The notes below the pieces were generated by a model. It was not told where the DNA came from and ran no database searches. It saw nothing but the letters and a program-made list of their open reading frames with translations. Shown here one piece after another: positions 6,629 to 12,580 of a stretch of DNA of 64,000 nucleotides (position 1 is the first letter of the stretch; the number at the start of each line of letters is the position of its first letter). Origin of the DNA: Planctomycetota bacterium (GTDB lineage Bacteria > Planctomycetota > UBA1135 > GCA-002748355); the NCBI GenBank assembly GCA_020426005.1, contig JAGQQW010000005.1:1-64000 (forward strand). Reading direction: 5' to 3'. The position numbers were made by a program, and so were the translations under genes.

Positions 6629-7768
6629 CTACTGCTTGCCTTCTTGTCCTGCGACGAGCTTCTCGACGAGCGCTTCGGCGACCTTGGTCGCTTTGTTGCC
6701 ATCGTGACCGCGGTAGTGGATGCGCATGTCGGCATCGAGCACGACGATCGTCGGCCAACCGGTCACACCCCATGCAGTCGGAATCGGGCCACGCGTTGCC
6801 TGAGGCCCTGCCCAGAAGTTGCGCCACTGCAGTTCGTTCTCGGCAACGGCCTTCTTCGCACGGTCGACCGGGTCACTGTTGACACCGATGAGGACGAAGG
6901 GCTTGCCGGTCATTTCTTCCACGAGCGACCGCTCGTGTGGGTACAGAGCCCGGCAAGGGCCTCACCAATCGCCCCAGAAGTCGAGGAAGATGACGCGCCC
7001 CTTGTAGTCGGACAGCTTGAACTCCTCGCCATCGAGATCGGTGCCGATGATGTCCTTGGCGATGACTCCGACGCCGTAGTGCTCGCGCACGTTGATCGCA
7101 GTGTCGACCTTCTTGCGGACGGCTTCGCTCGCTTCCTTGGCGGCTTCGAGCAATTCCTGCTTGGCGGCCGCGTACTTCGGGCTTTCGAGCGGCGCGCTGT
7201 CGATCGTCGTACCATGGCGAACGAGTAGCGCCGACGCACGAACGTCAGCATTCGAACTCGCGACGAACACGTCCATCGCTCGATCGCCGATATCCGCCGA
7301 GATCATGCGACCGAGGTACGGCAGCATCGGTGCGAGTGCAGCAACGCCGCTGCTGTTCGCGTGCGTCTCGAGGATCGTCTCGAGCGCGTCGCGCATCGCG
7401 TCCTTGTTCGGAGATCCGTTCTGCACGATCCAGACGAGGAACGGGACGGCGTCTTCGCTGTTCGCGAAGGTCTTGGCATAGTTCTGCGCCTTGCCGACCA
7501 GCGGACTGAGATCGGGACGCATCGGGAAGGCCTTGACCGGCTTCTTGCCGCCCTCTGGATCCTCCGCGGCCTCCTTCATCTGCTTCTGGATCGCCTGCAC
7601 TTCCTCACGCCACTTCGCGTAGATCTGCTGCTGTTCGTTGCGCAGATCGCGCATGGCTGCGGCGGGATCGTGCCTCGGAGCTTGGGGCTCGGCACCATCC
7701 TGCGTGACATCCTGCGCAAGGGCGGGCATCGCGAGGAGGGCGAGCGTGAACACTGGAATCAGACGCAT
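6629..7768 (-). CDS. Secreted TlpA/thioredoxin-like selenoprotein (Sec replaces first Cys of CxxC)
   Basis: One continuous frame of 379 residues runs from ATG 7768 (GAGGTG six bases upstream; signal peptide MRLIPVFTLALLAMPALA) to TAG 6629. It is interrupted only by TGA at 6964-6962, codon 269. The surrounding translation is FLDFWGDW-TGA-GPCRALYPHE, so the TGA sits exactly at the first Cys of the thioredoxin motif WCGPC. Downstream the fold is complete: FVLIGVNSD, the cis-Pro motif GWPTIVVLD (in VTGWPTI) and a final helix. Without readthrough the protein would lose its active site and the whole C-terminal half of the domain. A hairpin typical of bacterial SECIS elements follows the TGA. Residues about 20-235 are a helical, Glu/Lys-rich region. 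The gene lies 47 bp after the ECF sigma gene. Expected to act as a periplasmic or secreted thiol-disulfide oxidoreductase with selenocysteine at the nucleophilic site. Selenocysteine machinery genes are not in this window. Confidence 0.88.
6919..6939 (-). promoter_or_regulatory. Candidate bacterial SECIS hairpin
   Basis: In the mRNA, CACGAGC (6937-6931) pairs perfectly with GCTCGTG (6926-6920) around the tetraloop GGUC (6930-6927). A bulged A (6938) is followed by a further C-G pair (6939/6919). The loop begins 31 nt after the in-frame UGA, within the roughly 16-37 nt range known for bacterial SECIS elements. The GGUC apical loop and the 5'-side bulge resemble the E. coli fdhF element. A weaker competing hairpin (GCCC/GGGC) exists closer to the UGA. 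Confidence 0.75.
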
Positions 7769-7815: not shown

Positions 7816-8409
7816 TCAGCGATCATCGACCGCGATCGCGAGACGAGCGAGGCCACGATACACGAGGTTGCGAACGGCGCCTTCGCTCTTTCCCATCCGC
7901 TCACTGATCTCCGGGTAGGAAAGCCCGACGATGCGATAGAGGGTGATCGCTTCGCGCTGGTCAGCCTGCAGATCGGCGAACGCGGCTTCGAAATGCTCGA
8001 GTGCTTCGCGACCCGACATCACGCGGCTCGGTGTGCAGAGCGTTCGATAGACATCGAAGACCGAGGGCGTGGACGCCTCGGCCTCACGGGCACTGTCACG
8101 GCACTGCGCCTTGTAGTAGCGCGCCTTGTCGATCACCTTGTGGCGCACGTGCATCGCGAGCCAGCAGCGGAACGCCGCCTCGCTCTGGAACTCGAACGTC
8201 GCGAGGTCCTTGACGACCTCGGCGCAGACCGACTGCACGACGTCGGTGATCGACTCGCGCTGCGCGACCGCAGGACCGGCGTCGAGTCGGACCATCGCTT
8301 CGAGACGCGGGAGGTTGCGCACGAGCAAGGCTTCGATCGCGACACGTTCGCCGGACCTTGCACGCTGCACGATGGAGTCGTCTCGTTCGCCGTTTGCGTC
8401 GTCGTTCAT
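7816..8409 (-). CDS. ECF-family RNA polymerase sigma factor
   Basis: A 197-residue protein with sigma region 2 at about 50-95 (ESITDVVQSVCAEVV, AAFRCWLAMHVRHKVIDKAR) and region 4 at about 140-190 (LQADQREAITLYRIVGLSYPEISERMGKSEGAVRNLVYRGLARL, with the helix-turn-helix at its end). Its ATG overlaps by 4 bp (ATGA) the stop of the full-length kinase-SUMF frame, implying translational coupling. No anti-sigma gene lies next to it; in Planctomycetota some ECF groups are thought to be controlled by Ser/Thr kinases, and the upstream membrane kinase would fit that role. The selenoprotein gene follows 47 bp downstream and could be in the same transcript. Target promoters are unknown. Confidence 0.9.
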   Translation of the reverse strand: MNDDANGERDDSIVQRARSGERVAIEALLVRNLPRLEAMVRLDAGPAVAQRESITDVVQSVCAEVVKDLATFEFQSEAAFRCWLAMHVRHKVIDKARYYKAQCRDSAREAEASTPSVFDVYRTLCTPSRVMSGREALEHFEAAFADLQADQREAITLYRIVGLSYPEISERMGKSEGAVRNLVYRGLARLAIAVDDR

Positions 8410-11045
8410 CGCGGCCTGCCCTCGTTGTTCGAGACGAGACGGCGCACGATGCGCAGGCCTCGGAGTTCATTCTGATTGTCGGGGGAGATCGACTGCCGGT
8501 ACGACACACTCGCGACACTCGGAGGTGAGCGCCACGAACCGCCGCGCATCATCGCGAGCGATGCATCCCCTTCGAGCAAACCATCGCCTTGTCCGTGTCA
8601 GGCGGCATCGGTCGGGTAGGCACTACAGTATGGATCGCGACACCACTCCCACACGTTGCCGAGCACGTGGTGGAGGCCGAAGCGGTTCGGCCGGAGCGCA
8701 TCGACACGGGCAGCGAGCGGCCAGCCATCTCGTTCGTCGATGCAGATGTCACTCGGGGCGGCACCGGTTTCTTCAGCGCACGCATCGGCGATGTTCGCTG
8801 CTGCATGACCGTTCGAGAGAACGAGATCGTCGACGCTGCGCCCGCTCCACCACGGCGTCGAAGTCCCTGCCCGCGCCGCGTACTCCCATTGGGCTTCGGT
8901 CGGCAAATCGAGACCGTATGCACGGACGGCACGAGCAGCGATGTTGCGACTCACGGTGTCGACCGGCCAACCTGAGTCGGCTCGCGCATAGGCGGCTGTC
9001 GGCGTGGAGTTGCGAGCCAACTCGAGCGCAAGCGCGTGCAATCGTGCTGGGTCGTAGTACGACGGATCGCTCCCGGCCCAGCGTCTCCACTGGGCTTGCG
9101 TGATCTCGTGCTTGCCAACGAAGAACGGATCGAGCCGGACGGAATGTGGAGGCACCTGATTCTCGAGCGCGGAAGCGTCGAAGTGCGGCCGACGGGCGTC
9201 GGAATACTGCGCACCGATCATCGCCTCCCCACCGGGAACGAGGACGACGACCGGATCTGCGACATGCATGTTGGGGACTCGCCCGTGCTCGTCGAACTCC
9301 GCTTCGACACCCCCGACTTGCCAGACACGAAACTCCCACAGCCCCGTCGAGGGATTGCGACGCAACGGGACGAGTCCGGGCTGCGGCTCGATCCGCAGAC
9401 CTCGATAGGCGGGGCACTCGACTTCGCTCGCGATCGATTCGATCGCAGTGCGCCATCGCTCGCCAGCTTCGCCAACCGTCACACGGTGCACATCGTGGGA
9501 CCATGCCAGGACGCGACGTACTCGATCGACCGTCGATCCGTCCGCCTCGAACTCGTCGAGGTCCCGAAGGAGTTCGTCGATGGAGTCGCGCAGCACGATG
9601 TCTTCGTTGCTCGGGTCGCGATCTGCGGTGGCAATCTCGGCGAGGAGTCTCTGCTTGTCGGGCCGCCGAGCAATCAAATCGCTCGCACTCGCCAGCCAGG
9701 ATTCGAGTTCCATGGCTGGAGGCACTTCACCCGCACCGACGCGGAGCAAGTCGCCGGCACGCGCTTCGAGCTTGCGCAGGACGACGACGTCCCCGAGTTC
9801 GTGGAAGCGCGCCAACTGCTCCGCGCTATTCGTGGCGTTTCGAAGCACCATCGTGACGATCGCTACGAACGCGACGGTGCTGATGAGACTGCCGACCGTG
9901 AGCGTCGGGTTGCGCCGCGCGAACTTCGCGAGACGGTAGAACACACTCGGCGCGCGAGCGACGATCGGCTCGTGGGCGAGGTAGCGACCGAGGTCCTCGG
10001 ACAAACTCGACACCGATGCATAGCGCCGCGTGCGATCGTGCTCGAGCGCGTGCAGAAGGATGCAGTCCAGATCACCACGCAACTGACGGCACAGCCGCTG
10101 ATTCTTCGAGGTCTGCTCGCCCACGTGCTCGCCGACACGGCTGCTCGGACGCTTCGCCTCGTGCGTCGCGATCGCTTCGAGCAGGCGTGCGAGCCCGCTC
10201 GAACGGACGTCGGGTAGGTCGATCGGATGAGCATGTGTGAGCAACTCGTAGAGCACGACTCCGAGCGAGTAGACATCGGTGCGCACGTCGAGATCGTCGT
10301 GTCCGGCATCCGCTTGTTCTGGACTCATGTACTGCGGCGTGCCGACGACCTGACCGACGAGCGTGTGCTGCGCACCGACGTCGAGCGAGGCTTCGATCGC
10401 CTTCGACAACCCGAAGTCGATGACCTTGGCCACGGGGCGCGGTTCACCATCGACGACGAGGATGTTGGTCGGCTTGAGATCGCGGTGGATCACGCCCTTC
10501 TGGTGAGCGTGCTGCACGGCATCACAGACCTGCAAGAAGAGCTCGATCCGTTCGCGCAGGCCCAAGTCGTGTGCGTCGCAGTACTCCGTGATCGGAATCC
10601 CATCGACGTACTCCATCGCGAGGTACGGGATGCCGTCCTGCGAGCCGACGTCGAAGACCTTGGCGATGCCATCGTGCTGCATCCGCGCGATCGCGCGCCG
10701 CTCGAGTTCGAAACGACGCAAGGCTTCGTCGAGCGCAACGCCCGTGCGCACGAACTTGATCGCGACTTCTTGGTCGATGTCCGTGCGACGTGCGTGCCAG
10801 ACCTCCCCCATACCGCCGCGGCCGAGCAAACGATCGAGTTCGTAGGCGCCGACCGCTCGAGGGGTCGCATTCGGGGGCTCGGGTGAGACATCGTTGACGT
10901 CGAGTCCCCAGGCCCCGAGTACCGCGACCTTGCGGCGCAGTTCGTCAGCGAGTCCGGGATGTTCGGCGCAGATCTGCTCGATGGCCGAAGGGCCGACCTC
11001 GTCGATCCGTTCGAGTGCGATCGCGACGAGGCTCTCGAGGTCCAC
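8406..11045 (-). CDS. Membrane Ser/Thr protein kinase fused to SUMF/FGE-like domain, with in-frame TGA at codon 816
   Basis: The frame from GTG 11045 (AGGGAG Shine-Dalgarno six bases upstream; GTG 11060 is an alternative) encodes a Hanks-type kinase at about 69-340: GRGGMGEV P-loop, VAIKF lysine, HRDLKPTN catalytic loop (187-194), DFGL (210-213). A transmembrane helix follows at about 384-403, then a linker and a sulfatase-modifying-factor domain from about 600 (VPGGEAMIGA, DLPTEAQWEYAARAG, LGNVWEWCRDPY). TGA at 8600-8598 interrupts this last domain, but the same frame continues for 64 codons with the conserved ending MRGGSW...YRQSISPDN...GLRIVRR. It stops at TGA 8408-8406, overlapping the sigma-factor ATG. 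The SUMF part lacks the catalytic Cys pair of true formylglycine-generating enzymes, so it is more likely a sensor or binding domain. Readthrough as selenocysteine, a recent nonsense mutation, or a sequencing error are all open; if termination occurs, the SUMF domain is truncated. Confidence 0.8.
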
Positions 11046-11056
11046 GTCGCTCTCCC

Positions 11057-12580
11057 TCACAGACGAATCCGCACCGGATAGCCGTACGCGAACTCGAAGC
11101 TGGTTCCCGAGGGCACGAGGGCGAGCCATGTGCTCCACACGTGCACGCAACGAGCCCCGGAAGGCGGTACGAGCACGGCCGGAATGTTGAGCAAGTCGGT
11201 GACGATTCCACCACCGTACGGCTGCATGCTCGTCCGAGGCTGCGTCGTGTTGAGGAGGTGGATCGATGGGAACAGGTGGTCGCCGAGCATCCACACGTGG
11301 ACGGCCAAGCCATCGGTGCGCCCGGATGCGGTCCAACCGGTCATCACGCCCTCGAGCGATGGATTCCCGCCAGGACACGTGCGATAGAGCGCGGTGAACA
11401 GCCGACGGTTGGGAGACGGGCCGGTCGGCACCGGCGTGCCGAAGACGTAGTTCCACACGAACGGAATCGCACACGTCTGTGTGCCGAACGTGGGATCCGT
11501 ATCACACGTGCTCTTGATGTTCGTCTTCTTCTTCCCGGTCGCAGCTGCGACATCCGTCGTCCCATCCTCGACCGGCGCCGGATCGCCGCCACTCGCTGGG
11601 CCGACGAACTCCGTATACACCAGGTCCGACGTGATCTTCCCCGCCGGTGCGGTCGTCGAGAACATCACGTAGAGCCCCTTGCCGGTCTTGTAGTCGTAGC
11701 GCACGGAGAGCGCATCGACGTCGTCGCCGACCGTAGCACCGAGTTCTCCGTACGTGACGACTGGCGTCGGTTCCGTCCATTCGGTCCCCGTCCACACGGT
11801 CATGAGGATGGTCGCGCCACTCGGTGTCGTACTTCCCCACCAGGCACCCGGCACGGCCGCCAGCGTCGCATTCGAGACCGAGAAGTAGACTCGCGGATTA
11901 CGCGGCAGGAGCGACACGACACCGGCGTCGAGCAGATAGGACGGCAAGTGGGCGTCGATCGCGGTGATCTCTCCCTTCGCGTAGCGCCCATCCGGATGGT
12001 TCAACCCGATTTCACCGCTGTCGCTCTCGCGCCTCGTCGAACACGCACCGAGGGCGCAGTTGAAATAACCGGCGGGCAGCACTTTGCGAGAGTCCGAGTA
12101 GAGGTAGCTGAAGATGTCGGCACCCGCACCATCGGTCCGCCCTTGTTCCCGACCGATCACGCCGGTCGCACCCGTGGCGCCACGTTCGACGCCGAAGAGA
12201 AGCGCTCCCCAACGATCCGCAGGCAGCATCACCTGTGCACGCGGGATGGGTCCCGCGGTGTAAGTGATGTTGAGCGCATCCAAGCCACCGGAGATCGCAT
12301 CGACCTGGATCGCCGGAACGAGGTTGGTCACACGGTCGTGGAACATCTTCTCGAAGCGAAGATCCGGCCTTCCAGCGAGCGGTTCGGCAGCAGCCAAGAT
12401 CCCGCCCTTCTTGACGTAGATCTTCGTCGTCGAGAGGGCTGCACCGCTTCGGTCGACAGTCCCAGGACCGACGATGCACAAGACCTGGCTGGTCATCATC
12501 GGGCCGTTGTCCATCGGCTCTTGTGCCGGAAGACCGAGCGAAGCGGTCAGCGCGATCAGCGCGAGAGAGGCGTTCTTCAT
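11057..12580 (-). CDS. Secreted protein of unknown function
   Basis: A 507-residue protein from ATG 12580, chosen for a GGGAG Shine-Dalgarno and an immediate signal peptide (MKNASLALIALTASLGLPAQ). The mature part is rich in beta-type segments with aromatic and Gly residues. It contains an acidic/Thr-rich insert followed by GKKKTNIKSTCDTDPTFG and scattered paired Cys (for example TQTCAIPFVW, TCPGGNP). I recognise no domain. It sits between a secreted cysteine-peptidase homologue and the kinase-SUMF gene, on the same strand with short spacing. Its stop lies 12 bp upstream of the preferred kinase start and overlaps the alternative GTG by 4 bp. Probably an extracellular or surface protein of the same expression unit. 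Confidence 0.8.
   Translation of the reverse strand: MKNASLALIALTASLGLPAQEPMDNGPMMTSQVLCIVGPGTVDRSGAALSTTKIYVKKGGILAAAEPLAGRPDLRFEKMFHDRVTNLVPAIQVDAISGGLDALNITYTAGPIPRAQVMLPADRWGALLFGVERGATGATGVIGREQGRTDGAGADIFSYLYSDSRKVLPAGYFNCALGACSTRRESDSGEIGLNHPDGRYAKGEITAIDAHLPSYLLDAGVVSLLPRNPRVYFSVSNATLAAVPGAWWGSTTPSGATILMTVWTGTEWTEPTPVVTYGELGATVGDDVDALSVRYDYKTGKGLYVMFSTTAPAGKITSDLVYTEFVGPASGGDPAPVEDGTTDVAAATGKKKTNIKSTCDTDPTFGTQTCAIPFVWNYVFGTPVPTGPSPNRRLFTALYRTCPGGNPSLEGVMTGWTASGRTDGLAVHVWMLGDHLFPSIHLLNTTQPRTSMQPYGGGIVTDLLNIPAVLVPPSGARCVHVWSTWLALVPSGTSFEFAYGYPVRIRL

Follow-up and report, generated by a model that had tools for sequence, protein, structure and literature searches.

A predicted secreted TlpA-like selenoprotein with a UGPC active site and a conserved SECIS hairpin in Planctomycetota

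In the window, the whole 64,000-nucleotide stretch of planctomycete DNA analyzed here, a gene for a thioredoxin-fold protein contains an in-frame TGA, and the question is whether this codon ends the gene or encodes selenocysteine (Sec). By the standard code, the open reading frame stops at WGDW; the gene terminates at UGA, and the catalytic half of the protein is lost. The sequence-only reading had proposed a new selenoprotein at this locus. Its features, as annotated in the present analysis, are as follows:

6629..7768, minus: predicted selenoprotein gene of 379 codons before the TAG stop, the UGA at residue 269 being read as Sec; homologues across Planctomycetota
7712..7768, minus: predicted signal peptide, MRLIPVFTLALLAMPALAQ, end approximate; by sequence, with a similar hydrophobic leader in most relatives
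7076..7666, minus: N-terminal ten-helix domain, residues 35–231; AlphaFold2, pLDDT mostly ≥90, no Pfam match
6635..7072, minus: thioredoxin-fold domain, ResA/TlpA-like, residues about 233–378; Pfam, structure matches and model
6962..6964, minus: in-frame TGA, putative Sec269, first position of UGPC; sequence, motif scan and codons of homologues
6953..6955, minus: Cys272 of UGPC, putative resolving residue; invariant among the aligned members
6920..6937, minus: predicted bacterial SECIS upper hairpin of 7 bp, apical loop GGUC at 6930–6927; overlaps the HERSLV codons
6752..6754, minus: Pro339 of GWPT; invariant in the alignment

The in-frame TGA and its homologues

The coordinates 6629–7768 of the sequence-only reading were correct; the strand, which it had left out, is minus. 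The gene starts with ATG at 7768 and ends with the stop codon TAG at 6629. The TGA (6964–6962) does occupy the first Cys position of a WCGPC-type motif, FWGDW-U-GPC, in the context FLDFWGDW-U-GPCRALYPHERSLV. The remainder of a thioredoxin fold, described earlier as following the TGA, was found in the same frame, including GWPTIVVLD, and the fold matches Pfam and the structure model.

The expectation that homologues would carry either Cys or TGA at this codon was borne out. Among 126 homologues from Planctomycetota, the codon aligned to residue 269 is TGA in 104, TGC in 19 and TGT in 3, while TAA, TAG and TGG were not found in any of them. In a motif scan for W-x-x-W-TNN-G-P-C-R in the same class, the 150 sites listed comprised 117 with TGA, 31 with TGC or TGT and 2 off-frame TCN sites, with no TAA and no TAG; this tally was counted by hand from the listed rows, and at least one of the TGA rows (L054) matched by chance, out of frame. 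The presence of TGA at this motif is more than chance.

Homologues were found in all 151 genomes searched of the order, and most of those listed contain exactly one TGA. In the phylum-wide sample, the strongest matches (to about E = 1e-35) all carry TGA, and forms devoid of TGA are present only among the weaker ones. Adjacent copies of the family on one contig were seen in several genomes. By these sequence comparisons, the family is distributed order- and phylum-wide in planctomycetes, is usually represented by multiple copies per genome and is mainly of the predicted Sec form. One family member (L155) contains UAAC in place of UGPC, with the SECIS block unchanged.

The gene of an ECF sigma factor (7816–8409, minus) lies immediately upstream in the same orientation, with 47 bases separating it from the start of the selenoprotein gene. 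In the short flanks examined beside relatives, no ECF sigma factor was found, with the exception of a weak 24% match at one locus (L087); accordingly, the gene context, as far as these flanks extend, offers no clue to function.

SECIS hairpin and selenocysteine machinery

The hairpin with a GGUC apical loop reported at 31 nt past the UGA is real. It has the form CACGAGC-GGUC-GCUCGUG, with a stem of 7 bp, a loop of 4 nt and 31 nt from UGA to the loop; the local fold of this segment is −12.1 kcal/mol, and the 72-nt fold gives z = −2.71. The published bSECIS model (loop of 3–9 nt with an early G followed by G or U, stem of 4–16 bp, distance of 16–37 nt from UGA, MFE ≤ −7.5) is satisfied in loop size, G position, stem, distance and energy. 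Folding the sequence past the UGA, as had been proposed, thus gives a canonical bacterial hairpin, and selection on it is visible at synonymous sites. An Rfam search of the window gave no match.

Codons +10 to +13 (E-R-S-L) were compared in 50 genes: GAG was found in 50/50, CGG in 50/50, TCG in 50/50 and CTC in 49/50, against a background usage of 17% for CGG, 25% for TCG and 48% for CTC. Nearby codons for Ser, Gly, Pro and Leu, equally conserved as amino acids, vary normally in the same 50 genes, which indicates that selection acts on the RNA. The GGUC loop and six stem pairs are retained in 60 of 60 distinct blocks. Compensatory changes in the stem were found at two loci, namely, C-G to A-U in L043 and G-C to A-U in L166, where GAG/CTC became GAA/TTC and Leu was also replaced by Phe. 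The six nearest Cys homologues (L175–L180) are devoid of the SECIS block.

In relatives of the HEK type (L057, L059, L080 and L081, with HERT in L134), the GGUC hairpin is absent, and a GUGCG/CGCAC hairpin lies directly past the UGPC codons. Since these relatives fold other hairpins, closer to the UGA, the family contains more than one SECIS solution, and the position of the SECIS may differ between subfamilies. A second, UGA-proximal hairpin, GGCCC/GGGCC, was considered and rejected: it is mostly kept in the HERSLV types, but several of its pairs break, and RNAalifold omits it.

A search of the host genome for the genes selA, selB, selC and selD had been suggested, with the lack of any selenocysteine machinery as grounds for abandoning the proposal. 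The host assembly (6.0 Mb, 634 contigs, 67% complete) contains selA (460 bits, over the curated cut-off, with a Pfam SelA match too); immediately after it, a Sec-type selD that likewise exceeds the cut-off and itself contains an in-frame TGA (in SAAGU); and tRNA-Sec with the anticodon UCA (71.6 bits). Only selB is incomplete: its C-terminal half (SelB-wing_3 and the SelB beta-barrel) is located at a contig edge, and the N-terminal half was not found, a result compatible with, though no proof of, a gene cut off by the contig boundary in a 67% complete assembly. SelA scored over the cut-off in 33 of the 34 genomes of the class checked, the only exception being a fragmented MAG of 84% completeness.

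Predicted function and alternative readings

Analysis of the protein points to an extracytoplasmic redox enzyme. The AlphaFold2 model has an overall pLDDT of 93.1, with the thioredoxin fold placed at residues 241–378. The Pfam families AhpC-TSA, Redoxin and Thioredoxin_8 match over the cut-off, with PF08534 at 1.3e-12; the best Foldseek matches are ResA-like (TM by target about 0.8), and the nearest solved structures are those of ResA, BVU-2223 and the TlpA-like proteins of Geobacter and Chlorobium. In the NCBIfam search no model reached its cut-off on the selenoprotein, and the ResA, StoA and DsbE models were all far below. The protein does not have a CxxC motif with two cysteines, since the first residue is encoded by UGA (Sec); the second, Cys272, is present. 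Trp268, position 269, Pro271, Cys272 and Pro339 are invariant in the alignment of 38 members; Pro339 lies where thioredoxin folds have their conserved cis-proline.

The gene very probably encodes a secreted ResA/TlpA-like thiol-disulfide oxidoreductase with the active site Sec269-Gly-Pro-Cys272, the Sec of which is directed by the SECIS. SelB with Sec-tRNA(UCA) would bind the hairpin 31 nt past the UGA and insert Sec, in competition with release factor 2. In the exported enzyme, Sec269 would attack a disulfide of a partner protein (or oxidized sulfur), Cys272 would resolve the mixed selenenylsulfide, and the Se-S bond would be re-reduced, most likely by electrons brought across the membrane by a DsbD-family carrier. 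The gene of a DsbD-family transmembrane electron carrier was found in six of six genomes tested, including that of the host. The N-terminal helical domain would probably serve for docking of the partner or substrate. The likely role of the selenoprotein is extracytoplasmic disulfide reduction or shuffling, with Sec as the attacking and Cys272 as the resolving residue.

Three other readings of the TGA were weighed. The gene could be an ordinary Cys-type TlpA gene with a nonsense mutation or an assembly error; the data come from a MAG, and such stop events do occur here, since a neighboring gene carries an unconserved in-frame TGA. This neighbor (8598–11474, minus) encodes a Ser/Thr kinase with an FGE domain, and its TGA (8598–8600) lies inside the FGE-sulfatase domain, the score of which increases from 95 to 116 bits on reading through the TGA, with the domain then running to the end of the model. 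Almost all relatives of this gene have no stop at that position, and the codon is probably a nonsense mutation or an assembly error, making it a useful negative control for the conserved UGA of the selenoprotein gene. In the latter, about a hundred homologues, drawn from many different genomes and families, share the TGA at this codon, and the SECIS is conserved, whereas the random FGE stop is absent from nearly all relatives; a mutation or error, already refuted by this conservation, is practically out of the question. Genome-wide reassignment of UGA to Cys or Trp, which the alignment of TGA with Cys in homologues might seem to favor, is just as implausible: 31 of the window's 37 long ORFs (a crude, greedy choice of ORFs, one of which is the truncated form of the gene itself) terminate with TGA, which is thus a normal stop there, as the sequence-only reading had held, and reassignment would leave both the UGA-specific conservation of the SECIS and the full Sec machinery unnecessary.

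The UGA could also act mainly as a regulatory switch, by which cells short of selenium make a protein of the helical domain only, and cells supplied with it the full selenoprotein. Truncation would leave the secreted helical domain complete, followed by a fragment of the thioredoxin fold, and RF2 and SelB compete at Sec codons in general. The cut would, however, fall midway through the core of the thioredoxin domain, and the data give no sign of a separate role for the truncated form, which makes a switch unlikely, if less so than mutation or reassignment. The selenocysteine reading of the internal UGA, with Sec presumably inserted in vivo, is very strongly supported by the sequence comparisons.

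Known selenoproteins and selenium use in planctomycetes

Several described selenoproteins resemble the predicted protein. The thiol-disulfide isomerase-like selenoprotein of the Sargasso Sea set (cd02966, UxxC; PMC1088965; PMC13188914 Table 1) shares the TlpA-like thioredoxin superfamily domain and Sec as the first residue of UxxC, but that set comprises only four sequences, with no planctomycete assignment found in the text (PMC1088965). The Redoxin family selenoprotein (PMC13188914 Table 1) shares PF08534 and UxxC; compared by description only, it may or may not belong to the same subfamily (representative HEU0032618.1). The NCBIfam model NF041054 for a ResA-like, WAxxUGC motif-containing selenoprotein gave a weak local match of 26.3 bits, nowhere near the 300 bits that it requires, and its motif is UGC as opposed to UGPC here. 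The oxidoreductases ResA, TlpA and CcmG (PDB 1st9, 4nmu, 1jfu and 2b1k) have the same fold, position of CxxC and secretion, but contain Cys in place of Sec, and the matches to them leave the ten-helix N-terminal domain uncovered.

Within the phylum, full Sec machinery is described for the planctomycetes P1 and P2 from Porphyra, with fdhA and fmdB as the selenoproteins named in the main text (PMC4807772). The literature search for planctomycete TlpA selenoproteins returned this work and general papers, and no description of the family was found. A 2026 review names Thermodesulfobacteriota, Synergistota and Clostridia as the most selenoprotein-rich; Planctomycetota are unmentioned (PMC13188914), yet every one of the 151 genomes of one order contains homologues. 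The claim of a new selenoprotein therefore holds in part: selenoproteins of the UxxC thioredoxin/TlpA-like kind have been described before (PMC13188914 Table 1), and the gene represents a new member of this group, arguably of a new subfamily, because no NCBIfam cut-off was reached and no planctomycete TlpA family was found described. What is unexpected is the scale of the family and its Sec-first distribution.

In the host genome (67% complete), 10 of 17 AhpC/TSA-type domains contain one in-frame TGA. In a tree of 101 domains, obtained by a quick search on few alignment columns, Cys forms are placed at several points inside the Sec family, with at least six label changes, which suggests, with modest support, that Sec was replaced by Cys and that the Cys forms are derived. 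This direction is opposite to that reported as more frequent in other redox families, from Cys to Sec (PMC1794560).

A wider interpretation, which we consider evenly balanced between true and false, is that the large, secreted TlpA-like family of planctomycetes uses Sec by default and Cys secondarily, that the SECIS has frozen the nucleotides and the HERSLV residues of the active-site helix phylum-wide, with RNA dictating protein, and that in many of these bacteria much of the extracytoplasmic thiol chemistry depends on selenium. If true, selenium would be a major factor in the secreted redox chemistry of a phylum widespread in the environment, and the family would be a clean example of an RNA element restricting protein sequence.

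Other candidates were also annotated in the host genome. The gene of a predicted secreted protein (L129:880–2364, minus, contig C90; similar in L131), a candidate double selenoprotein, contains two in-frame TGAs, each standing for the leading Cys of a thioredoxin motif, namely, UGPC in an AhpC/TSA domain and UGWC in a Thioredoxin_7 domain. Peroxiredoxin-type candidates in L122 (contig C88) and L126 (contig C60) contain TGA at DYTFV-U-ATEF and LTGG-U-TAEVC, and L122 has an additional adjacent UPPC frame.
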